DNA of 21,946 nucleotides from a virus (IMGVR_UViG_3300037070_001149:1-21946); one strand, 5' to 3'. Counted from the first letter of the stretch, positions 3,796-21,946 are shown. Program-made: numbers and translations. Notes: a model not told the origin generated them from the letters alone.

Positions 3796-3800
3796 GGGGT

Positions 3801-3826: not shown

Positions 3827-3827
3827 C

Positions 3828-4826: not shown

Positions 4827-4880
4827 TATTCCCTCTGGAGCCGGGTTCGCATTTGTGACCGGCACGAAAAGGACTTCGTT

Positions 4881-5438: not shown

Positions 5439-5451
5439 GGGAGGGCGTGAC

Positions 5452-5955: not shown

Positions 5956-5960
5956 CATCT

Positions 5961-5994: not shown

Positions 5995-6007
5995 CAGGGA
6001 GATTCCA

Positions 6008-6117: not shown

Positions 6118-6147
6118 TCCACCTCAAATCCAAGGGAGAAAAGTGAC

Positions 6148-6726
6148 ATGGCAATAAATCGCATTCCAACCAGCATGGTCAGCGCAACGGCGCTGTCCGA
6201 ACACGTAAGCGCCAACATGGGCCTCGACGTCCGGCCCAACATGGGCGTTCCCGGCATTCTCGCCAAGATGGCGCTGGCCGGGTTTCCGACCGACTACATC
6301 GACGTGGACGACGGCAAGGAAGAACCGGAAATCAAGCGGGTCGAGCCGAAGCGTGATCGCCATACCCCCGGCAGGCGGATGGTCCAGCTTCGCATCGAGC
6401 CGCAGGAAAAGCCGGGTGGCAACGAGCCGGTATTTACCTCGGTCAACGGCGTGCCGATCCTGATCCCGCGCGCCCAGACGTGCTGGGTCGATTACAAGTA
6501 TTTCATCGCCCTCCAGAACGCCGTCGCCCACATCGCGGAAACGGACGAGGACTCCGCCATCACCGGCTACCGCAAGGTGCCGGAATACCCGGTGTCGGTC
6601 TTCACCATCGAACCCAAGCTGACCAAGTCTGAGAAGAAGGCGGCGGAAGAGGCTGAGAAGGCACGCTTGGCTGAGATCGAGGCGAAGCGCGAAGAGGTCG
6701 ATGACGACGAGGACGAGTACGCATGA
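6148..6726 (+). CDS. Conserved hypothetical phage protein (192 residues), connector-region
   Basis: The central part has a beta-hairpin-like segment, PVFTSVNGVPILIPRAQTCW (about residues 90-110), followed by a helix. The pattern 'V-x-V-N-G-x-x-I-L-I-P-R-x' recurs in unnamed proteins coded near phage capsid and connector genes. The C-terminal 40 residues are a highly charged helix (KLTKSEKKAAEEAEKARLAE) ending in an Asp/Glu run. The ATG has a strong AAGGGAGAA site. The stop overlaps the next start (ATGA at 6723-6726), so it is coupled to the adaptor gene. A structural role is likely from context; the specific function is not known to me. Confidence 0.7.
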   Translation: MAINRIPTSMVSATALSEHVSANMGLDVRPNMGVPGILAKMALAGFPTDYIDVDDGKEEPEIKRVEPKRDRHTPGRRMVQLRIEPQEKPGGNEPVFTSVNGVPILIPRAQTCWVDYKYFIALQNAVAHIAETDEDSAITGYRKVPEYPVSVFTIEPKLTKSEKKAAEEAEKARLAEIEAKREEVDDDEDEYA

Positions 6727-7433
6727 CCTTCCTCGAACTCTGCCAGATGACGGCGCAGCAGTCCGGCACCATCCAAGGGGCTTTCCCGACGACGACGGTC
6801 GGGCAGGTGAACCGTCTGAAGCAGATCGTGGACTTCGTCCGCGAAGCCTACATCGACATCCAGAATGCCCACCGTGGCTGGCGCTGGCTGCAAAGCGAGT
6901 TCACCGGGGTCACGGTGGCTGGCACCCAGCGCTATGCCGCCACCAGCTTTACCGATCAGGGGACCGGCACGCCGGTCACCCGGTTTTCCCAGTGGGGCTA
7001 CAAGCAGGACGGCTCCGACCTCAGCCAGTCGATGTACCTCACTTCGGCTGGCGTGGCGGAGGAGGGGGCGCTGCGCTGGCAGGACTGGGACGACTTCTAC
7101 GTCATGCAGTTGCGCGGCACCCAGACGCCCGCCAAGCCGCAGGTCTACAGCGTTGACAACCAGAACCGGCTGGTTCTCTCGCCGGTCCCGAACGCCGTCT
7201 ACACGCTGCGCGGCAAGTACCGCAAAAGCCCGCAGTTGCTTGCTGCCGACATCGACGTTCCCGAAATGCCGGTCGAGTTTCACACCATCATCAAGGACGC
7301 CGCGCTGAGTTATCTGGAGGGCTTTGATGAGGGGCCGCGCATTCCGATCTACCGGCTGCGGATGCTGCCCAACTTCTCGATGCTGGAGTCGCACCAGTTA
7401 CCGAAAGTGTTGTGGGGGGAGTCGTTGGCCTGA
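6723..7433 (+). CDS. Head-tail adaptor (connector) protein (236 residues)
   Basis: Adaptor proteins form a ring under the portal and link head to tail. The N-terminal helices (FLELCQMTAQQSGT, then NRLKQIVDFVREAYIDIQN at about residues 29-47) and a following tryptophan-rich WRWLQSEF segment are typical of the podoviral adaptor family seen in phages such as SU10 and functionally equivalent to T7 gp11. The middle is beta-rich with DNQNRLVLSPVPN. The C-terminal helices (EFHTIIKDAALSYLEGFDEG) also fit. It sits directly before the nozzle-like gene, the same relative order as T7 genes 11 and 12. Coupled start (ATGA) with the upstream gene; the stop overlaps the next ATG (TGATG). Confidence 0.8.
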   Translation: MTFLELCQMTAQQSGTIQGAFPTTTVGQVNRLKQIVDFVREAYIDIQNAHRGWRWLQSEFTGVTVAGTQRYAATSFTDQGTGTPVTRFSQWGYKQDGSDLSQSMYLTSAGVAEEGALRWQDWDDFYVMQLRGTQTPAKPQVYSVDNQNRLVLSPVPNAVYTLRGKYRKSPQLLAADIDVPEMPVEFHTIIKDAALSYLEGFDEGPRIPIYRLRMLPNFSMLESHQLPKVLWGESLA

Positions 7434-9352
7434 TGGCGCAGCAAGTCCAAACCTCGATGATGACCGGTGGTCTGGACCTCGTCACGCCACCGATTGCGCT
7501 GCCACCCGGCAAGGCGATCTCGTCCATCAACTATGAGCCTGACGTCGCCGGGTACACCTCGATGGCTGGCTATGAGCGCTTCGATGGACGCCCCAGCCCG
7601 TCCGACGCCACCAAACCGGGCGGTCCAGCCAGCCGCCGCGCCGCCATTACGCCACCTCCCGGCACCGGGCCGGTACGCGGCGTCTGGGTCTACAACAATG
7701 CCGTCTACTGCTTTCGCGATCAGGAAGATGGCTTTGCCGGGATGTTCCGGGCCGGGGCTGGCGGCTGGGAACAGATGACCTTCGGCTTCACGATGGAGTT
7801 TGGTTTCGGCAAGCAGATTTTCGAAAAGGGCGAGTATGTCGTTGGCGCAACCTCCGCCGCCAGCGCCCGCGTCGACCGCATCGTCACGCGCGGGGGAAAC
7901 TATGATCCCGACGAGCCGACCGCGAACGGCTACCTGATTGTCTCCAACATAGCTGGCACTTTCCTTGCCGACGAAGTGATCAGCAGCGGCAGTGGCGGCG
8001 AGGCCATTGGCCAGATAACGACCCAGATCAACATCTTTTCCGGTGGCCGCTACGAGTTCGTCAACCACAACTTCTACGGTGCTGCCGAACGCGAGCGGAT
8101 GTATTTCGCCAACGGCGTCGACACTGCCTTCGAATGGGATGGCGATGCGCTGTCGCCGATCCATACAGGGATCAGCGGCGGTGCCTCCATCGCCACCGTC
8201 GATCTTGCTTCGCCGCCCTCCGTCACTCCACACACGACTGTCTCGCCGATCTACACGCCAGCGGTGGTCAGCCCGGTGATCCCGGAATCTCCGATCATCA
8301 TGTCGACGCTGTTCGATGCACCGTCCTTTATCGGCCAGTTCAAGAACCACCTGTTCCTTGGCTATACGTCCGGCACCCTCATGTACTCCTCGATTGGCGA
8401 GCCGCTGGAGTTCAGCACGACGACAGGAGCAGGGGAGATTTCCTTCGGCCAGCAGATCACCGGGCTTCTGACGGCTGCATCAACCTCGCTGATGGTCTTT
8501 GCCCAGAACCGCATCGGCTATCTGACCGGTGACGATTCAACGACCTTCGTCCTCGCACCGCTGACCGACTCTTCCGGGGCGCAGCCGTACTCGATCCAGA
8601 TGATGGACGAGCCAATGTTCCTTGATGACGCTGGCGTCAGGAAGCTGTCGGCGACGGCGGCATTCGGCGACTGGCGCATGGGAACGCTGACCGCCCCGAT
8701 TGAGACCCTGATCCGGCAGAAGCGAGACACCGGCATTGCGGCGGTCGCCTCGATGAAGGTGAGGGGCAAGGACCAGTACCGGCTGTTCTGGGCGGATGGC
8801 ACCGGCATTACCGTCTACGTCGGCAGGAAGTACCCGGAAACAATGCCGTTCAAGATGCCGTTTCAGGCGTTCTGCTCATGCTCCGGGGAGGTCGATTATG
8901 GTCGGGGCGAGCGGCTGTTCGTCGGCGCTGAGGATGGTTTTGTCTACGAGATGAATTGCGGCACTTCCTACGACGGGGCCGATATCCAGAGTTACATCCG
9001 GCTTCCCTTCACCTCGGCCAGCAGTCCCAGCCAGCACACCCGCTGGATGAAGGCGACGTTCGAACTGTCGACCCCCGATCCGATTACGCTGGGGGTGGCC
9101 TTCGATGTCGACTACGGGCGCGGGCTGGGCGGTGTCGAGGTGGACGTTCCCGTCGAGGCTGGCGCGGCGACGGTCACCACCAACCACTATGCCGACATCG
9201 TCTGGTTGCCGGTCGAAGCACGGCTTGAATATCACCTGTCAGGCATTGGGCCGAACATCGCGGCCACGCTGGTGCACAACTCGGCGGTGGCGCGGCAGCA
9301 CACGATTTCGTCCCAGACCTACAATTTCTCGCGCCGCAGAATGATGAGGTAG
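7433..9352 (+). CDS. Tail nozzle / tail-tubular-like protein (639 residues)
   Basis: A large beta-rich protein whose N-terminus has GGLDLVTPPIALPPGKAISS followed by NYEPDVAGYTSMAGYERFDG (about residues 12-52). This opening is shared by many podoviral proteins coded after the adaptor and thought to form the tubular short tail or nozzle, equivalent in position to T7 gp12. The middle has strand-rich segments resembling a beta-propeller, such as FKNHLFLGYTSGTLMYSS and FVYEMNCGTSYDGADIQ. The C-terminus (HTISSQTYNFSRRRMMR) is basic. The ATG at 7433 overlaps the adaptor stop (TGATG) and is preferred over an in-frame GTG at 7412, which would overlap the adaptor gene by 22 bases. Family assignment rests on pattern recognition and gene order. 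Confidence 0.7.
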   Translation: MAQQVQTSMMTGGLDLVTPPIALPPGKAISSINYEPDVAGYTSMAGYERFDGRPSPSDATKPGGPASRRAAITPPPGTGPVRGVWVYNNAVYCFRDQEDGFAGMFRAGAGGWEQMTFGFTMEFGFGKQIFEKGEYVVGATSAASARVDRIVTRGGNYDPDEPTANGYLIVSNIAGTFLADEVISSGSGGEAIGQITTQINIFSGGRYEFVNHNFYGAAERERMYFANGVDTAFEWDGDALSPIHTGISGGASIATVDLASPPSVTPHTTVSPIYTPAVVSPVIPESPIIMSTLFDAPSFIGQFKNHLFLGYTSGTLMYSSIGEPLEFSTTTGAGEISFGQQITGLLTAASTSLMVFAQNRIGYLTGDDSTTFVLAPLTDSSGAQPYSIQMMDEPMFLDDAGVRKLSATAAFGDWRMGTLTAPIETLIRQKRDTGIAAVASMKVRGKDQYRLFWADGTGITVYVGRKYPETMPFKMPFQAFCSCSGEVDYGRGERLFVGAEDGFVYEMNCGTSYDGADIQSYIRLPFTSASSPSQHTRWMKATFELSTPDPITLGVAFDVDYGRGLGGVEVDVPVEAGAATVTTNHYADIVWLPVEARLEYHLSGIGPNIAATLVHNSAVARQHTISSQTYNFSRRRMMR

Positions 9353-9355
9353 GCG

Positions 9356-11194
9356 ATGGCCAATATGTACATCAATGCGATGTCGGCGCTGTGGAACAGT
9401 GTCGGCACGTTCTATTCCGCCATCAAGATGAACGTCACCAACTCAGGCTCGGCGGCGAACTCGCGGCTGATCGACCTTCAGGTTGGCTCGGTCGACAAGT
9501 TCTATGCCACCAAGGACGGCCACGTTTACGCCGCTGGCAATATCTCCGCCGCTGGCAATTTGACGCTCGGCGGCGCGATGTTGCCTTCGGTCGCCGATAC
9601 CACGGCGCTCGGCTCGCTGGCCAACCCGTGGTCCGACCTCTTTCTGGGCGGTGGCGGCACCGTCAACTGGGCCAACAGCGACGTGCTGATCAGCCACGCC
9701 ACCGACGTGATTACGGTGAGCGGCGGCGATTTGCGGATCGACGTGGCGGGCACCAACACGGCTTCGGCTGTAACCGTGGGCGGCACCCAGAACCTGACCA
9801 ACAAGACTCTGACCGGCGCGCTGATGAACGGCACGGTCGGTGCGACCACGCCCTCGACCGGAGCGTTTACGACGGTCTCGGCCAGCGGCCTGATCAGCGC
9901 CAATGGCGGTGTCAACGGCGCTCACAACGGGACCGTTGGGGCAACAACCCCAGCGACCGGGGCATTCACCACGCTGACCACCAGCGGCAATGTTACAGTC
10001 ACCGGCACGATTACCGCATCAGGTGGCGTGACAGGCGGTGTGACCGGTGCATTCAATGGCACCATTGGCGCAACGACGCCGAATACCGGCGCTTTCACCA
10101 CCGCCACGGCCACCAGCTTCACCTCCACCCAGAACTTCCTGTCAGCCACCTCTACGTTGATGCTCGCCCCGACCGGCTCTGGCTCGATTTCGCTGAGGCC
10201 GTCCGGCGCTGGCTCTGCCACCGGTCAGTGGAGTCTCGCTTCCAGCGGGGCGATGGCTGGTGTCTCAATGAGCCTGAGTGGAACCATACAGGGCATTGCA
10301 GGAACGCTCGGCGTGACGGGTGGACTCTCGGCGACAGGAACGATCTCGGCCACTGGCGGCTTCAGCGGTGCCCTTACTGGCGAGGTGGGGCTAGTGACAC
10401 CCGCCGCAGGCCAGTTCACCTCCATTATTGCTGTTGACGGAGTCTTCCCGGAAGACGAGAACTCGACCATCGGCGCTCCGGGCGACGGCTGGGGAAACAT
10501 CTATATCGCCGGGGATGGTGCCCTCAACTTCCAAAGCTATGACAAGTACCAGATCACCTACGTCGATGTCGGCGAGATGGTTGTGAACAAGCTGCATTTC
10601 AGCGGGGCGATTGAGGTCTACGGGTCGGTAATCGGGTTGGGGTCAGGGGAGTTTACCGGATCACTTAGCTGTAACGGCATCACAAACGGCAGTTCGTTGG
10701 TTACCGGCGTAGCCACTTGGGGCACTTACGTTGCAGGTGGTGCCTCGGTCCAGAACGGGTGCCAGATCAACGCGAGTGAATACAGGACTTCCCGCACCGG
10801 CACTGCCTCAACCAATCGCCTGATTTTCTACAATGCCAGCGCCAGCGCCGTTGGCACGATCTCAACGAGCGGCACGGCAACAGCCTACAACGTCTCATCG
10901 GACGAGCGGCTGAAGGAGAACTTCCGCTCCTTCGAAAGCGGGGCGTTTATCGACGCCATCAACACCTACCAGTTCGAGTGGAAGGAAGACGGCAAGACGG
11001 CCTACGGCGTCAGGGCGCAGGAGTGCTACGAGGTTTTCCCCGACGCCATCACCGTTGGCAGTCCCGGCGAACTGGAAGACGGCGACGAAGACTGGATGCC
11101 GTGGTCAGCCGACTATTCCAAGTTCGTGCCGTTGCTGCTCGCCGAAGTGAAGGCGTTGCGCGCCCGCGTGGCAGCACTTGAAGGGAGCCGGTAA
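9356..11194 (+). CDS. Tail fibre/spike with C-terminal S74 intramolecular chaperone (612 residues)
   Basis: A receptor-binding fibre candidate. The N-terminal ~75 residues (virion-attachment part) lead into Gly/Thr/Ser-rich beta repeats. Four copies of a G-T-(V/I)-G-A-T-T-P-x-T-G-A-F-T-T-like unit start at residues 159, 192, 235 and, degenerate, 342. Residues ~515-612 form a peptidase S74 chaperone: the S-D-E-R-L-K signature is intact, placing the predicted self-cleavage dyad at Ser515 and Lys520 with the spacing known from endosialidase fibres. It continues with YGVRAQECYEVFPDAI and ends in a leucine-rich trimeric coiled coil (LLAEVKALRARVAALEG). The chaperone folds the trimer and is then cut off, leaving about 514 residues on the virion. 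A GAGGTAGG site precedes the ATG. The region ahead of the chaperone (10600-10760) looks less GC-rich, as expected of exchanged receptor-binding parts. Confidence 0.85.
   Translation: MANMYINAMSALWNSVGTFYSAIKMNVTNSGSAANSRLIDLQVGSVDKFYATKDGHVYAAGNISAAGNLTLGGAMLPSVADTTALGSLANPWSDLFLGGGGTVNWANSDVLISHATDVITVSGGDLRIDVAGTNTASAVTVGGTQNLTNKTLTGALMNGTVGATTPSTGAFTTVSASGLISANGGVNGAHNGTVGATTPATGAFTTLTTSGNVTVTGTITASGGVTGGVTGAFNGTIGATTPNTGAFTTATATSFTSTQNFLSATSTLMLAPTGSGSISLRPSGAGSATGQWSLASSGAMAGVSMSLSGTIQGIAGTLGVTGGLSATGTISATGGFSGALTGEVGLVTPAAGQFTSIIAVDGVFPEDENSTIGAPGDGWGNIYIAGDGALNFQSYDKYQITYVDVGEMVVNKLHFSGAIEVYGSVIGLGSGEFTGSLSCNGITNGSSLVTGVATWGTYVAGGASVQNGCQINASEYRTSRTGTASTNRLIFYNASASAVGTISTSGTATAYNVSSDERLKENFRSFESGAFIDAINTYQFEWKEDGKTAYGVRAQECYEVFPDAITVGSPGELEDGDEDWMPWSADYSKFVPLLLAEVKALRARVAALEGSR
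9830..10423 (+). repeat. Fibre repeats of the G-T-V-G-A-T-T-P type (4 copies)
   Basis: In-frame repeats begin at 9830, 9929, 10058 and 10379 and encode GTVGATTPSTGAFTT, GTVGATTPATGAFTT, GTIGATTPNTGAFTT and the diverged GEVGLVTPAAGQFTS. Spacing is 99, 129 and 321 bases, so the intervening modules differ in length. Such units are common in trimeric beta-structured fibres with S74 tails and allow length change by recombination. Confidence 0.8.
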
Positions 11195-12414
11195 TGCCTA
11201 CTGTCGATCCCGTCACCGGAGAGGTCATCCCGGACCCCGTCGTGACAACGACGCCACCGGCCACCACCACGCCCGCTGCCACGCCACCGGTCGCCACCCC
11301 GGCCACGCCGTGGATCGGCAGTCAGAACACCGTCGATGACTCGGTCGCCAACGCCGTCAAGAATCTGGCGTCGAAGGATTCCGAACTCAACCGGATGGCG
11401 GCGACGGAAGGCCTCAAGGCGGCGAACCGGCGCGGCCTGCTGAACTCCTCGATGGCGGTCGGCGCTGCGCAGGACAGCGTGCTGAAGAACGTCATCCCGA
11501 TTGCCAGCATGGATGCCCAGACAGCAGCGCAGAAGAACGCGGCGGCGCGGGCGTTCGAGTACGGCATGACGGCGCAGGAACAACAGCAGGCTTGGCAGAC
11601 CGCAGAGGCGATAGCTGGCCGTTCGTGGCAGACCGGCGAGCGGCTGGGGTCACAGGAGTTTACCACCAGCGAGCGGATGGGAACGGAAGCCTTTGCCCGC
11701 ACCACGCAGGAACTCGACCAGTCGCTGCAAAAGCTGCTGCAATCGAACCAGATCACCGCAGCGGAGCGCGCTCAGGCCAAGCAGATTGAATCGACGGAGG
11801 GCATCGAAGCAGCCAACCGCTTCCTGCAACAGCAATTGCAGGAAAGCCAGCAATCGTGGGCGACCGGCGAGCGGATCGGCACGCAGTCGTTCCAGACGAT
11901 GGAGAACATCGCGGCGCGCGAGTTCACCGGAACGCAGAACCAACTCAACCGCGATCTCGAACTGCTGATGCAGGGCAACCAGTTGAGCGCGGAAGAAGCC
12001 AACCTGATCCGGCAAATCACCTCTCAGGAGGGCATTGCCGCTGCCAACCGGGCACTGACCAAGACGCTGGCGGAGAAGGACATCGCCTTCCGCATGAGCG
12101 AGGGCAAGCTGGACCGGGCGGCTGCGGTAGTGGCGCAGGACAAGGATATCGCCTTCAACAAGGCGCAGAACGCGGCGGCGCGCGCAATGCAGGAGAAGAT
12201 CGCCAAGATGAATCTTTCCGGCACCCAGCAGCAGGGGCTGTCGTCGGCGGTGTCGAACACGATGGGTTGGTATCAGAGCATGTACTCAACCATCATGGGC
12301 AACAAAGACCTGTCGGAAGCGCAGCGCACCCAGCAACTGACCAACGCCAAGAACGTCTACGACAACGGCATGAAGCTGAACGAGCAGATGTACCACGTTG
12401 ACCTGAACTGGTGA
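11194..12414 (+). CDS. Helical virion protein made of 11-residue repeats, probable internal/ejection protein (406 residues)
   Basis: Residues 1-40 are a Thr/Pro/Ala-rich disordered leader. A conserved-looking block follows (NRRGLLNSSMAVGAAQDSVL, about residues 70-90), found in unnamed podoviral virion proteins. The rest is Gln/Ala/Glu-rich helix. Two adjacent 77-residue units (145-221 and 222-298) align without gaps; both start W-(Q/A)-T-G-E-R-(L/I)-G and both contain (S/T)-x-E-G-I-x-A-A-N-R. Each unit divides into seven 11-residue hendecads with a large hydrophobic or small residue in first place. The pattern continues with less order to about residue 345. Hendecads form nearly straight or right-handed coiled coils, suited to bundles or channels. 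The start overlaps the fibre stop codon (TAATG). Placement between fibre and internal-protein genes suggests an ejected or tail-associated protein; no enzyme motif is visible. Confidence 0.7.
   Translation: MPTVDPVTGEVIPDPVVTTTPPATTTPAATPPVATPATPWIGSQNTVDDSVANAVKNLASKDSELNRMAATEGLKAANRRGLLNSSMAVGAAQDSVLKNVIPIASMDAQTAAQKNAAARAFEYGMTAQEQQQAWQTAEAIAGRSWQTGERLGSQEFTTSERMGTEAFARTTQELDQSLQKLLQSNQITAAERAQAKQIESTEGIEAANRFLQQQLQESQQSWATGERIGTQSFQTMENIAAREFTGTQNQLNRDLELLMQGNQLSAEEANLIRQITSQEGIAAANRALTKTLAEKDIAFRMSEGKLDRAAAVVAQDKDIAFNKAQNAAARAMQEKIAKMNLSGTQQQGLSSAVSNTMGWYQSMYSTIMGNKDLSEAQRTQQLTNAKNVYDNGMKLNEQMYHVDLNW
11626..12087 (+). repeat. Tandem 231-bp (77-residue) in-frame duplication, seven hendecads per unit
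   Basis: Unit 1 spans 11626-11856 and unit 2 11857-12087. They are aligned at protein level without a gap, but the DNA has diverged widely, so this is an old duplication kept by selection. First-position residues of the seven hendecads are W, F, F, L, A, S, L in both units. Confidence 0.75.
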
Positions 12415-12418
12415 CCGG

Positions 12419-12928
12419 ATGATCCGTGACATGAAATTTGCCGACATCCCAGCCGTCACCCGGCTGCTGCTGGAAGCGCATGCGCGCAGCGTCTATGCGG
12501 GCGGCGTGGCGGAAATGGACGAGGGCGAGGTCAAGCGGCTGCTTGGTCAGGGCATTGGCCGTCATGGCCACACGACGGGCGGCGGCTGCTTCGTGCAGGT
12601 ATCGGACGGCAGGACCGGCATCGACGGGCTGATCTACGCCACCCTGTACCGGGTCTGCTCGGTCTACAACAAGCTGTTCGCCACCGACCTGTTCTGGCTG
12701 ACCAACGCCGACGCGGAGGTGCAGGCCGATCTGGTGCTGCTTCAGAACATGCTCAAATGGGCTAAATCCTCGCCGCATGTGATCGAGGTGCTGACTGGCC
12801 AGACGGCAGTCATCGGCGACCGCGAGAAACAACGCAGGCTACTCGGCCAGCATAAGTTCCAAGACTACGGAACGATGCACCGCCTCGAATTTGGAGAACG
12901 GGAATGGGCAGCATTATCAGCGGCATAA
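12419..12928 (+). CDS. GNAT-fold-like virion-region protein, T7 gp13-like in position (169 residues)
   Basis: The N-terminus (MIRDMKFADIPAVTRLLLEA) is the usual first strand and helix of GNAT acetyltransferases. The end (LLGQHKFQDYGTMHRLEF) matches their last strands, where 'L-Y-E-K-x-G-F-x-x-x-G-x-x-Y' is common. The acetyl-CoA pyrophosphate loop (R/Q-x-x-G-x-G/A) is not visible in the expected central place; instead there is a LVLLQNMLKWAKSS helix. It is therefore probably a catalytically dead GNAT fold. T7 gp13, a virion assembly protein coded just before the internal core proteins, is likewise a degenerate GNAT-like protein, and this gene has the same relative position. Its end overlaps the next gene by 25 bases. 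An active N-acetyltransferase cannot be fully excluded. Confidence 0.65.
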   Translation: MIRDMKFADIPAVTRLLLEAHARSVYAGGVAEMDEGEVKRLLGQGIGRHGHTTGGGCFVQVSDGRTGIDGLIYATLYRVCSVYNKLFATDLFWLTNADAEVQADLVLLQNMLKWAKSSPHVIEVLTGQTAVIGDREKQRRLLGQHKFQDYGTMHRLEFGEREWAALSAA

Positions 12929-13782
12929 CCAAGATTTTCACATCTCTTGGGACAGGTGTCGCCACGCTCGGCAACGCGGTGCGCGGGGTCGGCAGTGCGC
13001 TGTTCACCGGCTTGGCGGCGAGCGGCACCGGCATGGCAGGCGCATCGTCTGGCGGCGGTCTTCTGTCCAGCCTGTTTGGGGGTGGTGGTGGCGGCGGCGT
13101 GCTGGGCAACATCCTTGGCGGGGCGCTCAAGCAAGGCCTTGCCAGCGGTCTGGTTGGCGGGCTGGTCGGCGAAGTCACCGGGGAGGGATTCGGCAAGGGC
13201 TTCAAGACGGGTGCGATTACCGGCGCGATTACGGGTGGCGCTTCCGGCCTGTTCACGCCGACCGGCTTCGCGGCTTCGGACGGATTTGGCGGTGGCGGCA
13301 GCGGTCTTGAAATGGCGGGTGGCAGCACGGCAACCGGCGCTACCGTCGACAACATCGTTACCGGCAGCACCACGGCTGGCACGTCGGCGCATGCCATCGA
13401 ACGCGGCAGGGACTTGTCGCTGGGCGGCGCGACGACGACTGCAACCAATGCCTTCCCGACGACGCCTGCCGCCCCGACCATGGGTGCTGGCTGGAAGGGG
13501 CTGGGCGATTTCCTCAGTTCGAATGCCGGGTCTTCGCTGATCGGCGGCATTGGCGAGTCGCTGATGACCGAACGCATCCTTGAAGCCAAGAAGGAGGAGG
13601 CTGAAGCCAACCGCGAGTACCTGCGCAAGGAACAGCAGCGGGTGACCGACAGCTACAACGTCAGCGGCGATGCCTACCTCGGCGGCGCGGCGATGGCGGG
13701 AGCCGCCAAAACGGCGACGGCCAAGAACAAGAATCCCAAGTGGACCTACAATCCGGGCACCGGGATGATCGACTATGCGTGA
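12904..13782 (+). CDS. Glycine-rich amphipathic internal virion / ejection protein (292 residues)
   Basis: Residues 1-115 are rich in Gly, Ala, Ser, Leu and Val (GLLSSLFGG, LGNILGGALKQGLASGLVGG, GAITGAITGGASG), resembling pore-forming or membrane-inserting segments of podoviral ejection proteins such as T7 gp14 or P22 gp7/gp20. A Thr/Ala/Gly-rich linker follows. A charged helix (RILEAKKEEAEANREYLRKE, about residues 220-240) and a conserved-looking end (KNPKWTYNPGTGMIDYA) complete it. A W-x-Y-N-P-x-T-G-M-I-x-Y-A tail recurs in comparable phage proteins, perhaps as a docking signal. Residues 160-175 carry a motif shared with the next protein. The ribosome-binding site GGAGAACGGGA lies inside the upstream gene. 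Function is inferred from composition and context. Confidence 0.65.
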   Translation: MGSIISGITKIFTSLGTGVATLGNAVRGVGSALFTGLAASGTGMAGASSGGGLLSSLFGGGGGGGVLGNILGGALKQGLASGLVGGLVGEVTGEGFGKGFKTGAITGAITGGASGLFTPTGFAASDGFGGGGSGLEMAGGSTATGATVDNIVTGSTTAGTSAHAIERGRDLSLGGATTTATNAFPTTPAAPTMGAGWKGLGDFLSSNAGSSLIGGIGESLMTERILEAKKEEAEANREYLRKEQQRVTDSYNVSGDAYLGGAAMAGAAKTATAKNKNPKWTYNPGTGMIDYA

Positions 13783-13791
13783 GGATGTCTG

Positions 13792-16128
13792 ATGGCCGAC
13801 AAAGACGACCGCGACAAATCACTCAGCGGTGGCAGTAGTCACTCCTCTGAGCATGAGGTCGACAAGTCCGTCAGCAGTGGCGGCTCGTCCAGCAGTTCGT
13901 CTGGCAGTTCTGGTGGCTATCAGGGGGCGCGCAGCGACACGCCGTCCTCCGGGCGCAGCGGTGGTTTTGGTGGCGCGACGGGCGGCGGTACATCTTCCAG
14001 TGGCTCTTCCCCCGGAGGCACATCCTCTCACGGCTCGGAGCGTGGCAGGGATACCTCGCTCGGCGGTCGCAGCGGCTACGGCTGGGGTGGTGGTGCCAAT
14101 GCGGGGCGCACCGTCAGTGCAGCCCGCTCAGATACGCCAAGCTATGGCCGCAGCACCGGCAGCAATCTTCCCGGCAACGTGACGCAGAGCGGCTCCACCC
14201 CAACGATATCCCCGAACATCAACACCGACCGTTTCGGCAAAGTCACCTCGCGGGTGACCAACGATCTGCCGACCGGCTTCGACCCGAACCGGATTGGCGA
14301 CACCATCCGCTCGACTCTCAACAGCCCGATTTCCTACGATCCCGTCACCGGGATGGTTGGCGCTGCGGTGCAGCCGGGGAAGATCAACCCGAACATCAAC
14401 ACCAACCGCTTTGGCGCTACCACAACGGCGACCGGCATTGATCCCAACATCGATCCTGCCCGCTTTGCCGATCCGCGCGCTGGCACGGCGGTGGCCAACA
14501 CCGGCCTGCCGACCGGCTTCGATGCAGCACGGTTAGGCGGCACGGTCGATCCCACGGCTGGCGTGAACGTTGGTCGCTTTGGCTACGACACCGGGGCGGT
14601 GGCCGGGACTGCCGCGCCAACCACTGCCGCCACCGGCATTGATCCCAACATCGACCCGGCGCGGTTTGGCGCTGCCACAACCGCTGATATCAACCCGGCG
14701 CGGTTTGGCGACACGCTTACGCCAACCACCGCCCCGGCCACGGAACGGTTTGGTCCAACAACCGGATTTGCCTCTGCAATCGGCACGCCAGTGGGGCCGA
14801 CAGAAGCCATCCAGTCGGCCACAAATCCGACCGGCACCGTTGCCGCACCCGGCATCACCGACAGGCCGAACACCCGCGTTAGTCTGGCCGACGCAGCGAA
14901 GGCTGACTTCCTTTCCGCTCCGGGGTTCAGGGCACCAACGACCGACGTTATTGATCGCGTCCGCGCATCGTGGGCGGCTGAACTGGGCGCGGATAACGTC
15001 CGCATTACCGGCACGCCGCACGGTGGCCTGCGCACCTCGGCAAAGGGCGCTCGCTCCGGTCGTCATGGACCGGTGGAGGGTAGCGCGCTCGACTATACCG
15101 TCGAGGTCAAGGAAGACGGCAAGTGGCGCTCGCTCGACTTCGGCAAGCAGGACGACATCGAACTCGCTGACCGGGTCGCGATTGGCGGCATGCGCGATTT
15201 CGGCCTCAAGGGCTATGGCGTCGGCAACGGCTACATGGGCAACAAGGCCATCCACCACGACATCAAGGCCAACCCCAAGTCGGGTGGCTTCGAATGGACT
15301 GGTCCTAATGCTTCCTCGGCGGGCGTCTCGGCATCGCGGGCGCGCTCGTTTGCTGACGCACGCTCGGCCTATGCTTCCGCCAAGACGACAACACCTGCCT
15401 TTGAAACGCCGGTTGCTTCCTACACGGCGACCGCCTCGGACACGACGCCAGCGGTGGCGGCGCTCAATGCCTTTAGCGGGGCGGGTGGCAACAACACACT
15501 GACCGGCAATGGCACCACCACGGCAGACGCTGGCGTTGACCCGACCACCACCTCCTCGGCCACCCCGACAGGTGGTGGTACGGTGGACGCAGCCGGGAAA
15601 ACCGTTTCGACAGCCACGCCGGGAACCGACAACTATCCATCGCAGCCTACCCCGGCACCGGGCACCAGCGGCTTTGCGCCAACACCGAAAGGCCCATACG
15701 AGCAGACGTGGAAGGGCATGGCGGCGGCGCTGGGGATCGATGCTGCCGCAAGCATTCACCCTGCGGGCTGGGCGCTACAGGCTGGCGCGATGGTGCTGAC
15801 CGGAGGCGACTCGCTAGGCACCGCACTGACCGGCGCAGTCGGTGGCAAGTATGGCGACAACGCCTACAGGCCGGGGGCTGACGACCGCTATTCCGGCGAC
15901 CGGGCTGGCGGCGTTGGCAGCGGCAAGCAGAACACCACAGGCGTCAACAAACCGGAAACCATCGGCCAGACGCCAGCCGTCAAGCCGGGGTCCACCTCCG
16001 CCAAGACCACCGAAACCACCTCGACGGACACCCCGACCGTGGCGGCGGATTTCGTCAGCAAGTACATCGACCCGGTCAAGCGACCGACCCCATTCGAAAA
16101 ATGGGGCGCAGACTTTGGATGGAGTTAA
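13792..16128 (+). CDS. Ser/Gly-rich repeat virion protein with a probable zinc peptidase (M15/Hedgehog-type) domain (778 residues)
   Basis: Residues 1-135 are a Ser/Gly-rich low-complexity arm. Residues 142-321 hold nine R-(F/I/L)-(G/A) repeats. Residues ~365-510 form a compact domain with R-S-G-R-H425-G-P-V-E-G-S-A-L-D434, then GLKGYGVGNGYMGNKA and I-H488-H489-D490. This resembles the H...D...H zinc-ligand layout of M15/Hedgehog-type DD-peptidases and phage endolysins (S-x-H-x-x-G-x-A-x-D ... H-x-D), with two extra residues between the first His and Asp. A long Thr/Ser/Pro linker follows, then a hydrophobic Gly/Ala stretch (about 640-685) and a short end (SKYIDPVKRPTPFEKWGADF). The inferred role is local peptidoglycan digestion during DNA entry, by a protein carried in the particle. 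The peptidase call is by motif only. GAGG precedes the ATG by seven bases. Confidence 0.6.
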   Translation: MADKDDRDKSLSGGSSHSSEHEVDKSVSSGGSSSSSSGSSGGYQGARSDTPSSGRSGGFGGATGGGTSSSGSSPGGTSSHGSERGRDTSLGGRSGYGWGGGANAGRTVSAARSDTPSYGRSTGSNLPGNVTQSGSTPTISPNINTDRFGKVTSRVTNDLPTGFDPNRIGDTIRSTLNSPISYDPVTGMVGAAVQPGKINPNINTNRFGATTTATGIDPNIDPARFADPRAGTAVANTGLPTGFDAARLGGTVDPTAGVNVGRFGYDTGAVAGTAAPTTAATGIDPNIDPARFGAATTADINPARFGDTLTPTTAPATERFGPTTGFASAIGTPVGPTEAIQSATNPTGTVAAPGITDRPNTRVSLADAAKADFLSAPGFRAPTTDVIDRVRASWAAELGADNVRITGTPHGGLRTSAKGARSGRHGPVEGSALDYTVEVKEDGKWRSLDFGKQDDIELADRVAIGGMRDFGLKGYGVGNGYMGNKAIHHDIKANPKSGGFEWTGPNASSAGVSASRARSFADARSAYASAKTTTPAFETPVASYTATASDTTPAVAALNAFSGAGGNNTLTGNGTTTADAGVDPTTTSSATPTGGGTVDAAGKTVSTATPGTDNYPSQPTPAPGTSGFAPTPKGPYEQTWKGMAAALGIDAAASIHPAGWALQAGAMVLTGGDSLGTALTGAVGGKYGDNAYRPGADDRYSGDRAGGVGSGKQNTTGVNKPETIGQTPAVKPGSTSAKTTETTSTDTPTVAADFVSKYIDPVKRPTPFEKWGADFGWS
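14215..14754 (+). repeat. Nine degenerate R-(F/I/L)-(G/A) repeats
   Basis: Arginines of the motif fall at residues 147, 167, 206, 224, 247, 262, 291, 304 and 319 of the 13792-16128 protein. Most sit in N-I-(N/D)-(T/P)-x-R-F-G or G-F-D-x-x-R-(I/L)-G contexts. A 23-bp identical stretch at 14431-14453 and 14632-14654 shows recent duplication or exchange within the array. Confidence 0.75.
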
Positions 16129-16131
16129 GCC

Positions 16132-16830
16132 ATGCCACCTCTTGATCCGTCCCAGATACCGCCTGACGCCGTGCCACCCGAAGCCGTGCCACCTGAAGAG
16201 GGCGCGCTGCCACCGGAGCAGGCCAACCCGCTACAGGGCGGCATTCAGCAGGCTTCGCCGGAAGAGCAGGCGCAGGCCGACGAGTTCGTCCTCAAGGCGT
16301 GGCAGTTGATCTACGACGACAGGACATTTCCGCAGATCGTTGAGATGCTGAAGGGCGGTGGCGGCAATCCCGTGCAGGGACTGGCGATGGCCACCGACAT
16401 GGTGGTGTCACGGGTCGGGCAGGCGGCTGAGGATTCCGGCAAGGAACTCATGCCGGACGCGGTGATGTTTGCTTTCGGCGAAGTGCTTGAGGAACTGGCG
16501 GAGGTTTCGCGTCGTGCCAAGATCAAGGACTACGCCGAAGACAGGGACTCTCTGGAGGGGGCTTACTTTCAGGCCATCGATCTCTATCGCGACCGGCTGC
16601 AAAAGGCTGGCGTTCTCGATCAGGAGTCGCACAAGCAGGGTCTTGAGCAACTGATGCAGGCTGACAAGGACGGCACGCTGGAGCAGATCATGCGCCAGTT
16701 GGCGGAGGAGGACAGTTCCGGTCAGGCCGGTGGCGATGTTCCGCCGCCAGAGGCAGAGGCAAGGCCGAAGCGCAAGGGCATGGGGTCCGCGATGGGCAAG
16801 CCGCCCGCCAGTGAAATGATGGGGGTCTGA
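16132..16830 (+). CDS. Helical virion-module protein with Pro-rich N-terminus (232 residues)
   Basis: Residues 1-45 are Pro/Glu/Ala-rich and probably disordered. The core (about 48-190) is helical, with segments such as ADEFVLKAWQLIYDDRTFPQ, NPVQGLAMATDMVVSRVGQ and DAVMFAFGEVLEELAEVSRR. Proteins with this layout (disordered leader, then 'F-V-x-x-A-x-x-L-I-Y', then a helical pair ending 'E-E-L-A') are common and unnamed just ahead of large ejection proteins in podovirus-like genomes. The C-terminus is basic (PKRKGMGSAMGKPPA). GGAG is placed seven bases before the ATG. No enzyme motif is seen. A role as virion or internal-protein chaperone is inference from position. Confidence 0.65.
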   Translation: MPPLDPSQIPPDAVPPEAVPPEEGALPPEQANPLQGGIQQASPEEQAQADEFVLKAWQLIYDDRTFPQIVEMLKGGGGNPVQGLAMATDMVVSRVGQAAEDSGKELMPDAVMFAFGEVLEELAEVSRRAKIKDYAEDRDSLEGAYFQAIDLYRDRLQKAGVLDQESHKQGLEQLMQADKDGTLEQIMRQLAEEDSSGQAGGDVPPPEAEARPKRKGMGSAMGKPPASEMMGV

Positions 16831-16832
16831 CG

Positions 16833-17828
16833 ATGATCGGTCTTCTTGGAGCAATCGCTGGCGGCGCGATGAAGGGCTACGGCGCTGGCCAGATGGAAGA
16901 AATCAAGCAGCAGCGCGAGGCGAAGCTGAAGGAACTGGATCGCCAGTTCACCAAGGAAGAAAACGCCCTGAGCCGTGCCGTGCAGGAGAAGCAGATCGCG
17001 TCGAGCGAGCGGCAGTCCTCTGCCCAGCTTGCCGTTTCGGAGCGCATTGCCAACAACCAGCAGGCCACCAACAGGTATCTCGGCGAACTGAGCGAGCGTG
17101 GCGCAACCAACCGGACGGAACTTCAGGTCGGCAGCGCTGAGAAGATCGCGAGGGACCAGATCGCCGCCTCGAAAGACATTGAGGAGTTCAGGGCTGCATC
17201 CGACCAGTTGCTGAACACCAAGATGATCCCGGTCAGGGATGCGTCAGGCAAGGAAACCTACAAGGTGGTGACGCCGGACGGCCATGAGATTCCCAAGCTG
17301 AAGGGACCGGATGGCAAGGAACTCGACTGGGCTGGAGCAGACGCCGACACCGACGCAGCCAAGAACTACAAGTTCATGATTGCCAACGACTTCGATCCGG
17401 TGAAGGCGGGGCAACTAGCGTTTGGCGCGAAGGACAGCGACATCGATAGCATGACGGCTCAGTTCTACGATTCGTTCGTCAAGAGCAGTTTCACGACGCC
17501 CGACGAAACGAAATCGCAGCAGTTCCTGAAGATGGCCCGTGATGCGGCTGTCAGTATTGCCAACCGGGGAACAGCGACGGCAGCGCCTGCGACAGGAACA
17601 GACCCGGCAGCGGCAGCACCTGCGGCAGCAGGAACGCCAGCGGCTGCGTCCCCGGCAACAGAGCCGGACTATTCAGCGATCCCGCGCCCGACAGGAATGA
17701 GTGACGCGCAAATCATTGAGACGGTCAAGGCTGATCCGAAGCTGAGGACCAAGCCACCGGCAATGGTCAAGCGGCTGCTTCAGGCATGGGGTGTCAGTGA
17801 GGACGCTATCCGCAAAGGTGGCCTATGA
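16833..17828 (+). CDS. Internal virion-type protein: hydrophobic N-terminus plus coiled coil (331 residues)
   Basis: The first ~20 residues (MIGLLGAIAGGAMKGYGAGQ) are a short Gly/Ala hydrophobic segment. They run directly into a long charged helix (about 20-130: MEEIKQQREAKLKELDRQFT ... NRYLGELSERG). This combination is typical of podoviral ejection proteins that line up inside the head and enter the cell envelope. A small beta-like segment follows (ETYKVVTPDGHEIPKLKGPD), then helices, then an Ala/Pro/Thr-rich linker (about 245-285) and a compact end (MSDAQIIETVKADPKLR). The start lies two bases after the previous stop; the stop overlaps the start of the giant gene (ATGA at 17825-17828), so the two products are translated together and may act together. 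Confidence 0.65.
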   Translation: MIGLLGAIAGGAMKGYGAGQMEEIKQQREAKLKELDRQFTKEENALSRAVQEKQIASSERQSSAQLAVSERIANNQQATNRYLGELSERGATNRTELQVGSAEKIARDQIAASKDIEEFRAASDQLLNTKMIPVRDASGKETYKVVTPDGHEIPKLKGPDGKELDWAGADADTDAAKNYKFMIANDFDPVKAGQLAFGAKDSDIDSMTAQFYDSFVKSSFTTPDETKSQQFLKMARDAAVSIANRGTATAAPATGTDPAAAAPAAAGTPAAASPATEPDYSAIPRPTGMSDAQIIETVKADPKLRTKPPAMVKRLLQAWGVSEDAIRKGGL

Positions 17829-20800
17829 GCCTGCTTGACGCCCTGCCGGACATTGCGCCAGCCGGTGGTGGTACAGCGCCAAGCCTGCTCGACGTGCTGC
17901 CGGATATCCAGCAGGGTGGCAGCTTCGCCGACGCCGTCACCAGCGGGCAGGTTCCCGGCTTCTTCGACAGCCTGAATCCACCAGCCGCAGCGCCGGACGA
18001 TGTCGGCACTGGCTTCCAGCGGGGTGTCATCAATACAGCCAAGCGGGCTGAGGCGCGGCTGGGGCAGATGGGCACCCAGTTCATGATGGAGCAGACCGCC
18101 CAGCGTGCTGCTGACCGGCAGAAAAGTTTCGGCGAGATACTGGCGGAAACGCGGCAAGGCCTGACCGACATGCAGGGCAAGCCAATGCCGTCCTATGACG
18201 GCAGCGAGTTCATTCAGGCGTCAGCCCGCTGGATCGATGCAAAGTATGCCGACCTGATTGGCACTGACGATGAGGCTGCGGCGAACGACTATGCCGCGCG
18301 CATGCAGCAGAACATGGATGCCATCAAGAAAATCCCGAAGTCGGAGATCGCGCAGGACTTCGAAAAGAAGGCGATGGTCAAGGACGCCACGCTGGGCGAG
18401 ACGCTGGCCAACTTCGGCAAGGCGATCCTCCAGAACCCGGTTGGTGCCTTGTCGTGGTCGGCTGAGACGGCGGGTGAAAGCGCACCGCAGATGGGTGCCG
18501 CCATCGCTGGCGGCGTGCTGACCCGCAATCCGGCTATGGGCATCGGCCTGATGGGCGGCGGCAGCTATGCGACGGAACGCTACACCTCGCCCGGAGAGGT
18601 ATTTGAGGAGCACAAGCTGGACCTCAAGAAGCAGGAGGACCGGGATAAGCTGTTCAACGACCCCAAGATCATGCAGGAAGCGGCCAAGCGCGGCCAAGTC
18701 CGGGGTCTGGTCATTGGTGCTTTCGACATGCTGTCCGGTGGTCTGGCTGGCAAGACGCTGACCAAGAACCCGCTCGCCGAAGCGCTGTCACAGGTTCTGG
18801 TGCAGGGCATCATGGGATCGGCTGGCGAGGCTGGCGGTCGGGCATTGTCCGGGCAGAAAATCGACTGGAACGAGATTATCGCCGAAGGCATCAGCGAAGG
18901 CATGACCCTGCCGTTCGACATGGTTGCTGCCGGACGTGACATGATGACGGGAGCCGAAACCCCACCCGGCGAAGGCCAACGGCCATCCGGGGGTGGCGGC
19001 AGCACGCGCATCAACGCCACGCCGCTGACTGCCCCTGCCGGTGCGCTGCCAGCCGACGAGATCATTGGTGCTGAACCGGGTGCGCCGCCGTCCGGCCCAG
19101 AGGCTGCACTGGCTGAGGTGGAAGCCCTCGCATCGGGGATAACCCCAGCCGCCACCCCGGAAGCCACCGTTGCAGCCGCACCGCAGCGGATGCGGATCAA
19201 CGACCCGGCCTTCGAAACCGTGGACGGCCAGCAGTACCCGGACGGCGAAATGCACGGCGAGATCGTCACGCTGGAGAAGCGCGGCGACGACATGAGTTTC
19301 GTCCGCACAGAAGACGGGCGCATTCGCAAGATCGGCAACGACCTGCTGGAGCCGCTTGAACCGAAGCAAGCCGCCATTGCTGGCGCTGCACCGACGCAGG
19401 CGGCTGAGGCTCTCGCTGTCCCCGACAGTCCACGCCTGACCGAACAGGACCGCAAGTCGCCGATCCCCAATGAGGTGATCGATGCAGGCAAGGCGGCGGT
19501 CGAGGACGCCACCGGCAAGCCATCGACCTTCACCACCACGACCACGATCAACGGCAAGCGGGAAGTCGTTACCGGTAACGTCTCCGATCTGGTGGCTGGC
19601 AACCGGGCGGAATCGTCGGCGCTGATCGAACGGATCACGGCGGGGGTTTCCACCCCGGAAATCTTGGCGTCAGCGCCTGCCGCAGCCGCGCCAGCAGCGA
19701 CGGGCGAGGTGCCCGCTACCCTTGGACCTAGCACTGCTGCTGCCCCTGTAGCGCCTTCTACAGGGCAGCATTCGAGGGCCGACTACAGGAATGTCCGTGG
19801 CGCGGTCTATCATCTGTCGGACGCAGACCAGCAGGCGCTTGCCAGTGCCGTCGAGACTGCCGTCGATCAGAAGGGTGAAGTTACCTTTGACGACCTGCCC
19901 AGAGCCATCACCGACCGGATCGGCCACGCTGAACTGACGGCGATCAAGAGCAATCTCGGCAATCCATCCCTGCTCACGGATGCCTTCAGAGCGGACTGGT
20001 CGCGCGTTACGAAAGGCCCGACAGCCACACCCGACCTGACGCCTGCACCCATCGAAGATGTCAGCGACGATGCGCAGGTACGCACCAGAGACACAGCATC
20101 GTTCGAGGAGTGGAAGGCCAAGACGCAAGCCCATTGGGATGCGCGAAAGGCAAAGGCGGCGGAGATCGCGGCCAAGGGTGGCTCGACCCGCATGGAGCAC
20201 CGGACGCGGGAAGGCCAGAAGGCGCTGATCGGTCCCGACACGGCGGAACCCGGCAAGTTTCGCATCACCCGTTTCGACAAGGACGGACCTTTCGGCCACA
20301 CCACCTTCAACACGCTGGAGGAGGCGGCGAACGAGGCGCTGCGCGACGGCTACGTTCCGACTGCTACGCCGACCGTACTCTCCGAACCGGCCAAGCAGAC
20401 GGCGCTGAAGGACAAGATCGAAGCCAACCGGGGTGCTGCCGCGCCAGCCCAGCGGCCAAAGGTCGAGACTCGTCCGATCAAGGACGACGTTGCCATCACC
20501 GCGACCGGGCGCGACGTGCCGGTCACCTACGCGGTGGTCGAGGCCGACAGCCTGATTGCCTCGCAGCGCGACGAGGGCGGGGCCAACCCGGACTACCCGG
20601 CTGAACTCCAGCCGCGCGACCGCAGCCGGGGCACCAGCGATGCCCAGATCAGCACCATTGCCAACAAGCTGGACCCACGCCTGCTCGACCAGAACCCGAA
20701 CGCCAGCGACGGCGCACCGATCATCTCGGAGGACGGCGTGGTCGAGAGTGGCAACGGTCGCGTGCTGGGTGTCCGCAAGGCCTACAACGAAGGCCTGCCC

Positions 20801-21946
20801 ACGGCAGAGGGCTATCGGCAGTATCTGGCCAGCCAAGGCTACCCGGTCGAGGGAATGCAGCGTCCCGTGCTCGTGCGTGTCCGGCAGGGGCAATTGCAGT
20901 CCGGCGAGCGGCAGGCCTTCACGCGGGAAGCCAACGAACGCACGACGATGGGAATGTCCGCGCCTGAGAAGGCGATGTCGGACGCCTCGGCGATGGATGA
21001 CAGCGTGACGGCGCTCTATCGCGGCGGCGATATCGAGGACGCTGGCAACCGGGATTTCGTGCGGGCCTTCTTGCAGAAGGTGGTCGGCCAGAACGAACTG
21101 AACGAGATGGCCACGACGGCTGGCGAGATTTCAACTGACGCCATTCGCCGGGTGCGCAATGCTCTGCTCGGCAAGGCCTATGGCGATGCCAATCTGGTGG
21201 CGACTCTGGTCGAAAGCCCAGACAACAACATCCGCTCGATTGGCAATGCGCTGACCGACATTGCTGGCGTCTGGTCGCAGATGCGGGCGGAGGTGAAGAG
21301 CGGCAAGATCGCCCCGGACATGGACATCACCGACCGCCTGATCGAAGCGGTGCGGATGGTGCAGCGGGCGCGCGATGCAAAGCGGCCATTAGCTGAGTTT
21401 GTCGAGCAGACAGATGTGTTCAGCGGCGAGCGGATGCACCCGGAAGCGGAGTTCCTGCTCAAGCTGATGTTCCGCAACGAGCGCTCTTGGACCAACCCGT
21501 ATGGCCGCGAAAAGATCGCGGACGCACTATTGTACTACGGAAATGAAGCGCGTAAGACTACGGCGGAGGAGAACATCTTCGGCGAGCCACCGGTTTCGCA
21601 CGGGCAGATTCTCGAACAAGCAAAGAAGAAACAGGATGCCGGACGACAAGAAGAGCAAGGCCTCCTCACCCCGCGTGACGGAACTGCTCGCGCGGACGAT
21701 GGAGCGGCAGGCGGCAAGCGAGCCGTCGAAGCTGGACCGCGACCGCAAGCTGCGGCTGGCCAACCAGTTCAGGGAAAAAATGAAGCCAAGGCACCGTCCA
21801 AACTAGCCAAGAAGGTTGCCGAAGTCCGGGCGAAGAAGTCCAAGTTCTTCAAGACCAAGAAGGGCGACATCAGCCAAGCGAAAAAGGCGGCAGCGAAGCG
21901 GGAAGCCGACCGGAAGACTCCAGAATGGCAGGCGGAACTCGCGCGA
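17825..21946 (+). CDS. Giant polyvalent virion protein with DdrB-like ParB domain (3' end outside window)
   Basis: Open from ATG 17825 to the window end with no stop: at least 1374 residues. Order of parts: a duplicated SLLD(A/V)LPDI motif (residues 2-10, 19-27); charged helices (about 60-200); two Gly/Ala hydrophobic helical regions (about 205-250 and 290-375) that could cross a membrane; a Pro/Ala linker; a small beta unit (about 456-514); more linkers; a short FRITRFDKDGPFGHTTFNTL unit (about 814-845); and a DdrB-like ParB-superfamily domain (about 895-1010) with Q-P-R-D-R at 929-933 and E-S-G-N-G-R at 974-979. The usual DdrB helical extension follows (to about 1260), then a basic tail. 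Such polyvalent proteins of phages and conjugative elements are believed to enter the recipient cell with the DNA and protect or manage it. It is coupled to the upstream gene by ATGA. Codon signal weakens at 21640-21800, where another frame looks coding. Confidence 0.8.
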   Translation, partial: MSLLDALPDIAPAGGGTAPSLLDVLPDIQQGGSFADAVTSGQVPGFFDSLNPPAAAPDDVGTGFQRGVINTAKRAEARLGQMGTQFMMEQTAQRAADRQKSFGEILAETRQGLTDMQGKPMPSYDGSEFIQASARWIDAKYADLIGTDDEAAANDYAARMQQNMDAIKKIPKSEIAQDFEKKAMVKDATLGETLANFGKAILQNPVGALSWSAETAGESAPQMGAAIAGGVLTRNPAMGIGLMGGGSYATERYTSPGEVFEEHKLDLKKQEDRDKLFNDPKIMQEAAKRGQVRGLVIGAFDMLSGGLAGKTLTKNPLAEALSQVLVQGIMGSAGEAGGRALSGQKIDWNEIIAEGISEGMTLPFDMVAAGRDMMTGAETPPGEGQRPSGGGGSTRINATPLTAPAGALPADEIIGAEPGAPPSGPEAALAEVEALASGITPAATPEATVAAAPQRMRINDPAFETVDGQQYPDGEMHGEIVTLEKRGDDMSFVRTEDGRIRKIGNDLLEPLEPKQAAIAGAAPTQAAEALAVPDSPRLTEQDRKSPIPNEVIDAGKAAVEDATGKPSTFTTTTTINGKREVVTGNVSDLVAGNRAESSALIERITAGVSTPEILASAPAAAAPAATGEVPATLGPSTAAAPVAPSTGQHSRADYRNVRGAVYHLSDADQQALASAVETAVDQKGEVTFDDLPRAITDRIGHAELTAIKSNLGNPSLLTDAFRADWSRVTKGPTATPDLTPAPIEDVSDDAQVRTRDTASFEEWKAKTQAHWDARKAKAAEIAAKGGSTRMEHRTREGQKALIGPDTAEPGKFRITRFDKDGPFGHTTFNTLEEAANEALRDGYVPTATPTVLSEPAKQTALKDKIEANRGAAAPAQRPKVETRPIKDDVAITATGRDVPVTYAVVEADSLIASQRDEGGANPDYPAELQPRDRSRGTSDAQISTIANKLDPRLLDQNPNASDGAPIISEDGVVESGNGRVLGVRKAYNEGLPTAEGYRQYLASQGYPVEGMQRPVLVRVRQGQLQSGERQAFTREANERTTMGMSAPEKAMSDASAMDDSVTALYRGGDIEDAGNRDFVRAFLQKVVGQNELNEMATTAGEISTDAIRRVRNALLGKAYGDANLVATLVESPDNNIRSIGNALTDIAGVWSQMRAEVKSGKIAPDMDITDRLIEAVRMVQRARDAKRPLAEFVEQTDVFSGERMHPEAEFLLKLMFRNERSWTNPYGREKIADALLYYGNEARKTTAEENIFGEPPVSHGQILEQAKKKQDAGRQEEQGLLTPRDGTARADDGAAGGKRAVEAGPRPQAAAGQPVQGKNEAKAPSKLAKKVAEVRAKKSKFFKTKKGDISQAKKAAAKREADRKTPEWQAELAR
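21636..21806 (+). CDS. Possible nested 56-residue gene inside the polyprotein gene
   Basis: In the +1 frame relative to the giant gene, ATG 21636 to TAG 21804-21806 encodes 56 residues. It begins MPDDKKSKASSPRVTELLAR and continues with a charged amphipathic helix (SKLDRDRKLRLANQFREKMK). Third positions in this frame are almost all G or C, as in the confirmed genes of the window. The giant frame over the same bases has many A/T third positions and reads as a disordered Gly/Ala/Pro/Gln linker. After 21806 the giant frame looks coding again. No strong Shine-Dalgarno sequence is present (only AAGAAGAAACAGG before the ATG). Alternatives are a pair of compensating frame changes within the polyprotein, either natural or from sequence errors (an A6 run lies at 21775-21780), or chance. 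Confidence 0.4.
   Translation: MPDDKKSKASSPRVTELLARTMERQAASEPSKLDRDRKLRLANQFREKMKPRHRPN

Follow-up and report, generated by a model that had tools for sequence, protein, structure and literature searches.

Polyvalent proteins of phages, as described by Iyer et al. in 2017 (PMC5512222, main text), are found in a late-gene context and combine many exchangeable domains. One of these is the DdrB-like ParB domain (Pfam PF18763), and zeta-toxin, HExxH peptidase-like and LPD-type domains are among its partners. For DdrB-like ParB domains, the authors prefer a nucleotide function, NTP sensing or degradation. DdrB of phage P1 is a virion protein of about 109 kDa, and the P1 data favour loading and anti-restriction as the role of the ParB core (PMC12810830, PMC9024508). 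Phage N4 ejects its virion RNA polymerase, gp50, the N-terminal domain of which enters nanodiscs (PMC12633501). In podovirus JC1, a DarB-like giant of 4515 amino acids, which closes the virion module, is found in virions with 51 unique peptides (PMC9144972). The gene for gp16 of Pseudomonas phage AF (2213 amino acids) comes after head, tail, two "internal virion protein" and endolysin genes. We found no proteomics on this type of giant in the phage Ab31 paper.

The window analysed here, a whole stretch of 21,946 nucleotides, ends inside a giant gene which may be compared with these systems. Its product is a long phage protein composed of several unrelated domains, with a late-gene context, so that it is polyvalent, as the original prediction held. 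It contains PF18763 and many exchangeable domains, and its relatives have the zeta-toxin, HExxH and LPD-type partners found in PMC5512222. Like P1 DdrB, it has a ParB core followed by a helical partner (33% identity over residues 890–1269, tblastn). On the other hand, P1 is a myovirus and the core of the DdrB-like PHROG 2299 (995 positions) begins at position 32, which leaves no room for a comparable N-terminal module. N4 gp50 is also a giant, and the last of the internal virion proteins in its podovirus. Its N-terminal domain is matched by a sister version of the N-terminal module, but its cargo is an RNA polymerase and it has no ParB core. AF gp16 has a module of the window's type (25% identity over 91% of the module), without the ParB core and without the domains at 523–612 or 767–850. 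In Pseudoalteromonas phage vB_Pun_Y3 (OR779980), gene order from portal to giant is similar to that of the window. The Y3 giant (WPJ21802.1, 3421 amino acids) has a ParB core 32.7% identical to the window's over residues 892–1236. Unlike the visible part of the window's giant, it contains ART, methylase-like, LPD5 and LPD1 domains, and its N-terminal module is not recognisably of the window's type.

A named phage with a similar layout therefore exists, and the exact domain order of the window, originally considered noteworthy, is one of many: 53 of 143 open reading frames with a ParB core (143 includes repeat fetches of the same contigs) carry a recognisable hydrophobic module followed by ParB. 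ParB, zeta-type kinase and peptidase parts have already been described in polyvalent proteins (PMC5512222, main text). Two features are less familiar: the group of N-terminal modules that spans ParB giants, AF gp16 and N4 gp50; and the constancy of the helical partner of ParB. The modules, the helical partner and the 523–612 and 767–850 domains are not named in the passages of that text consulted.

The giant gene and its genomic context

An ATG at 17825 opens a frame of 1374 codons with no stop up to 21946 (ORF scan), which confirms the claim of a gene of at least this length. Given the base composition, a stop-free run this long has a chance probability of about 4e-17, and GC content by codon position (0.67/0.50/0.75) is gene-like. 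The virus record itself ends at 21946. It is probably a fragment, and relatives were used in place of a contig extension. They were drawn from 49 genome and 80 viral loci, given here as L numbers, and provided an alignment of 82 cores. The giant frame and the preceding gene (16833–17828) share four bases, an overlap of the kind seen in tight operons. An NCBIfam search with protein P0001 gave no match. Several long antisense open reading frames (19670–20893 on the minus strand and others, 408 amino acids at most) resemble shadows of GC-rich coding frames.

Table 1. Features of the window; residues are those of the giant protein
Feature	Position	Strand	Basis or context
Portal	216–2642	+	Start of structural block (216–7433) closed by giant
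Major capsid protein	3828–4826	+	Structural block
SU10-like adaptor	6723–7433	+	Structural block
Tail/stabilisation protein	7412–9352		Upstream of giant
Fibre with S74 chaperone	9356–11194		Upstream of giant
Gene 14, 778 aa, Gly/Ser/Thr-rich, M15-peptidase-like motif, putative internal virion protein	13792–16128	+	Same position in L058, L136
Genes 15 and 16 (232, 331 aa), putative internal virion proteins	16132–17828	+	Order kept in L058, L003, L057
Giant gene, 3'-truncated, at least 1374 codons	17825–21946	+	Cut by contig end
N-terminal module, residues 58–375, probable packaging/ejection role	17996–18949	+	Similarity to L002, L058/L136, AF gp16
Small beta-barrel, residues 451–514, SH3/Tudor/KOW-like	19175–19366	+	AlphaFold2 (pLDDT ~80), Foldseek
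Conserved "SPIPNE" domain, residues 523–612	19391–19660	+	Alignment A8
Helical insert, residues 645–722	19757–19990	+	No relative found
Small alpha/beta domain, residues 767–850 ("KFRITRFDKDGPFGHT")	20123–20374	+	AlphaFold2 (pLDDT ~86), alignment A7
DdrB-like ParB domain, residues 895–1020	20507–20884	+	PF18763, AlphaFold2, invariant residues
All-alpha partner of ParB, residues 1025–1280, no Pfam name	20897–21664	+	PHROG 5143, AlphaFold2
Lys/Ala low-complexity linker, residues 1285–1374, cut by contig end	21677–21946	+	Sequence

The giant comes last in a structural block of podoviral type, after the portal, an N4-gp56-type capsid, the adaptor, tail genes and internal virion genes. The capsid protein shares 49% identity with the Y3 protein, which is annotated as N4-gp56 family. 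On the basis of this match and the upstream structural genes, the phage is a podovirus as judged by its gene content, with the giant in last place. The original comparison with the largest ejection protein of T7-like phages holds for the position of the gene: the capsid is of the N4-gp56 type and no T7 core protein was matched. A T7 gp16-like ejection protein was rejected as a candidate, the N-terminal region having no PHROG, Pfam or PDB match (on the basis of sequence, the N-terminal model being poor).

Six upstream genes have no good matches in the databases searched. Gene 14 has no Pfam or PDB match, and no solved structure was matched by genes 14 to 16. The pattern RSGRHGPVEGSALDY (15052–15096) together with AIHHD (15247–15267) in gene 14 is putatively M15-peptidase-like. 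In L004 and L005 an M15 domain is fused to the giant itself, unlike the separate gene 14 of the window. PHROG 5107 labels the tail/stabilisation protein as "amidase", probably a mis-annotation; in related phages it is annotated as head-closure or phage stabilization protein.

Domains of the giant protein

The predicted DdrB-like ParB domain was recovered by profile search. Pfam PF18763 matches residues 895–1020 with E=1.1e-36 (126.1 bits, curated cut-off 27.6), and the PHROG 5143 match spans residues 887–1282. A tblastn search finds 36 phage records, P1 DdrB included, and 602 plasmid records, mainly from Escherichia. The motifs QPRDR (929–933) and ESGNGR (974–979) are exactly where they had been placed. 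In the 82 relatives Q929, P930, R931, R933, S975, G976, N977 and R979 are conserved in 100% and E974 in 99%, so that these motifs are the two strongest signatures of the core. G963, Y997, P1014, D1053 and R1109 are also invariant or nearly so.

The AlphaFold2 model of the core (mean pLDDT 95.4) consists of a ParB-like alpha/beta part and, after it, an all-helical one. In the loci collected, the helical partner is found in 131 open reading frames, compared with 134 which contain ParB. As it nearly always accompanies ParB, the conserved unit extends over about 390 residues, and the Pfam model covers just 121. The two-domain model has no match to a PDB structure by fold or by profile, so the active site of the core is deduced from conservation. 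In the viral library BFVD, the best Foldseek matches are DdrB-like domain proteins; models named ParB/Sulfiredoxin reach probabilities of 0.8–1.0, but with E values of only 0.06–0.1. According to these matches, the ParB domain has the ParB/sulfiredoxin fold.

The main text of PMC5512222 lists two hallmarks of the DdrB-like group: an arginine in the pocket, and an additional helix which lies between the last helix and strand and contains a conserved tyrosine. These plausibly correspond to R979 (100%) and Y997 (99%); Y997 lies inside helix 992–1003, with strand 1014–1020 next (AlphaFold2, 82 relatives). A further feature given there is an Asp or Asn ending strand 2: N921, which is 91% conserved, is a candidate for it. 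Two ParB/Srx-looking segments, at about 591–730 (VDGHHGWMA) and 1270–1312 (LLDGFHRIEAA), flank the core in the L003 protein. The linker after the core has no phmmer relatives among the loci collected, and aligns loosely with the linker before the kinase of L003.

The mean pLDDT of the model of residues 1–890 is 47, so only two small domains of this model have been used. These domains, at 451–514 and 767–850, are fairly confidently folded and correspond to two of the three segments originally described as unassigned (about 456–514 and 805–848). Residues 451–514, found elsewhere in the loci collected only in L057, look SH3/Tudor/KOW-like in the model. Foldseek matches are mostly of this type, with a probability of about 1 but E values of 0.1–0.5 and low overall model confidence. 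The 767–850 domain is also found in open reading frames of about 90 amino acids, stop to stop (L140 4381–4647, L141 5947–6216). The third segment, taken here as 645–722, has no match in phages nor in the loci collected and, within these, is peculiar to the window's giant. The 523–612 domain is present in the ParB giants of the window's group, with partial matches in the L148–L150 giants, which lack a ParB core in the stretch examined. Their cargo is helicase/methylase, inorganic pyrophosphatase/methylase/helicase, or LPD5/LPD1/MuF-C. No methylase or helicase was detected by Pfam or PHROG in the visible part of the window's giant.

The N-terminal module contains the two Gly/Ala-rich helical segments which had been proposed, at about 219–250 and 294–334. 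Their best 19-residue Kyte–Doolittle means are 1.05 and 1.12, below both the 1.6 usual for a transmembrane helix and the average maximum of shuffled versions of the giant (1.5). The Gly/Ala-rich helices thus hold, and a membrane-type character is only possible. The membrane-inserting N-terminal domain of the N4 polymerase reaches just 1.29–1.39 on the same scale, so a weak hydropathy does not decide membrane insertion.

Residues 58–375 are 68% identical to the L058/L136 version and 44% identical to L002, whose protein of 767 amino acids has LPD22 and no ParB. The profile of the module finds AF gp16 with 23.7 bits, and no solved structure is matched. A sister module precedes the same 523–612 and 767–850 domains and the ParB core in L003, L057/L138 and L139, and sister modules are also found before helicase/methylase or pyrophosphatase cargo. 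The sister profile (L003/L057 family) matches N4 gp50 at 317–435 with 29.2 bits. Decoys (300 shuffled N4 N-termini and the reversed protein) do not exceed 8.7 bits, and other frames of the N4, AF and Y3 stretches do not exceed 8.2 bits. In a PHROG scan, residues 236–294 of L003 match phrog_2206 (virion RNA polymerase) with E=3e-4. The window's own module, searched as profile A5, has no direct match in N4 gp50. The window and sister modules are likely to be related, judging from a weak profile link: hhalign gives a probability of 56% with E=1e-4 and hmmsearch 12.9 bits, and column-shuffled profiles of two related families give 0–0.3% in hhalign. At this N-terminal end some related giants have an enzyme acting on peptidoglycan: M15 (L004/L005) or SLT (L062).

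Proposed role and alternative explanations

In our opinion, the giant is probably the last internal virion protein of this podovirus, a polyvalent protein which is packaged in the head and ejected with the genome, and whose ParB core acts after entry. Gene order and the relation of the N-terminal module, with the presence of the JC1 giant in virions, make packaging and ejection into the cell the best reading, by analogy. Residues 58–375 would serve for packaging and passage through the envelope, as does the N-terminal domain of the N4 polymerase. The domains at 451–514, 523–612 and 767–850 may be exchangeable linkers or adaptors. The ParB and helical core (890–1280) would have nucleic acid or nucleotides as its target immediately after entry; most likely it would contribute to anti-restriction or DNA protection, similarly to P1 DdrB/DarB. 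Against this reading, DarA, Hdf and other P1 Dar partners are not recognised in the window. Candidate roles are nucleotide sensing or hydrolysis, DNA nicking, protection of the entering DNA and head loading. Domain identity, gene order, module sharing and the content of relatives were computed here, and we infer packaging, ejection, processing and biochemical activity. By analogy with the P1 Dar proteins, JC1 gp69 and N4 gp50, presence in virions, injection, membrane insertion and a nuclease, DNA-binding or anti-restriction activity may be attributed to the giant.

The core might instead be mainly structural, recruiting or loading other cargo into the head and doing no enzymatic work in the cell. 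For P1 DdrB, the listed function is that it "aids DarB addition to capsid" (PMC9024508), and other Dar proteins are no longer packaged once Hdf and DarA have been deleted (PMC12810830). In addition, the ParB domain and its helical partner are equally constant. We nevertheless consider this doubtful, since the pocket residues (QPRDR, G963, SGNGR and Y997) are invariant or nearly so in 82 relatives, beyond the needs of a scaffold, and no DarB-like partner is recognised within the window.

It seems rather unlikely that the core is an NTP-regulated DNase which attacks host DNA early, in a host takeover, rather than protecting phage DNA. The paper of Iyer et al. may be counted in its support and the zeta-toxin-like kinase of the relatives also points at the host, but NTP sensing or degradation is the function preferred in the main text of that paper, and the evidence on P1 DdrB concerns packaging and restriction, not loss of host DNA (PMC12810830, PMC9024508). 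Finally, the giant might be a late protein that is not packaged but stays inside the cell, its gene lying in the structural operon by chance; this is very improbable, given that its place after internal virion genes is conserved in distant relatives, that its module is common to AF gp16, which follows two annotated internal virion protein genes, that a sister module is found in the ejected N4 gp50, and that the JC1 giant is found in virions (PMC9144972).

Returning to a packaged and ejected giant, we tentatively suggest, as a possibility that falls short of being likely, that podoviruses share one N-terminal delivery module with interchangeable cargo, and that the window's giant is an injected DNA-acting machine built on it. 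The cargo would be an RNA polymerase in N4, ParB with its helical partner in the window, and helicase/methylase or pyrophosphatase in others. If this is true, the module alone could be a general signal for the packaging and injection of proteins. How podoviruses pack proteins of several hundred kDa into the head and move them through a narrow tail, a long-standing question, would become testable. Late proteins of phages commonly contain the ParB core and its constant helical partner, for which neither a structure has been solved nor an activity assigned.

Full-length relatives and the predicted 3' part

In L136 and L058 the window genes from 7412 to 17828 are found in the same order: a tube-like protein, the S74 fibre, genes 11 to 16 and the giant, which is complete and has 2787 amino acids. 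The last two genes are also present in L057, whose stretch starts shortly before them and whose giant has 3178 amino acids. The closest relative by core is L003 (67–68%), with a kinase present before its contig end.

The original prediction that the missing part may carry further effector domains is borne out in these syntenic relatives. The core is followed by a zeta-toxin-like kinase (PF06414, E about 1e-15) in both the L058 and L057 giants, which also have a HExxH segment (at 1668 and 1640, respectively) with no Pfam match, an uncharged Gly/Ala-rich stretch of 46–48 residues and a large C-terminal region. They suggest that the missing 3' part contains a zeta-toxin-like kinase, a HExxH peptidase-like segment and a large C-terminal region. 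Since this content is known from full-length relatives only, it is predicted for the window's giant, whose visible part has no HExxH peptidase-like (MPTase) segment. The C-terminal region may be helical, and the HExxH segment might be a zincin-like peptidase which processes the giant. Other ParB giants bear ART, SLT, M15, LPD5, LPD1, LPD38 and methylase-like domains.

N4 gp50 also has a HExxH segment after its cargo, like L058. A relation between the C-terminal parts of L058 and the N4 C-terminal domain was tried and rejected, with scores at or below those of decoys. In phage Y3, part of the C-terminal module known from the L058-type giant is found on a separate downstream protein (L137, 28439–31522), as if the gene of the giant had been split or fused during evolution.
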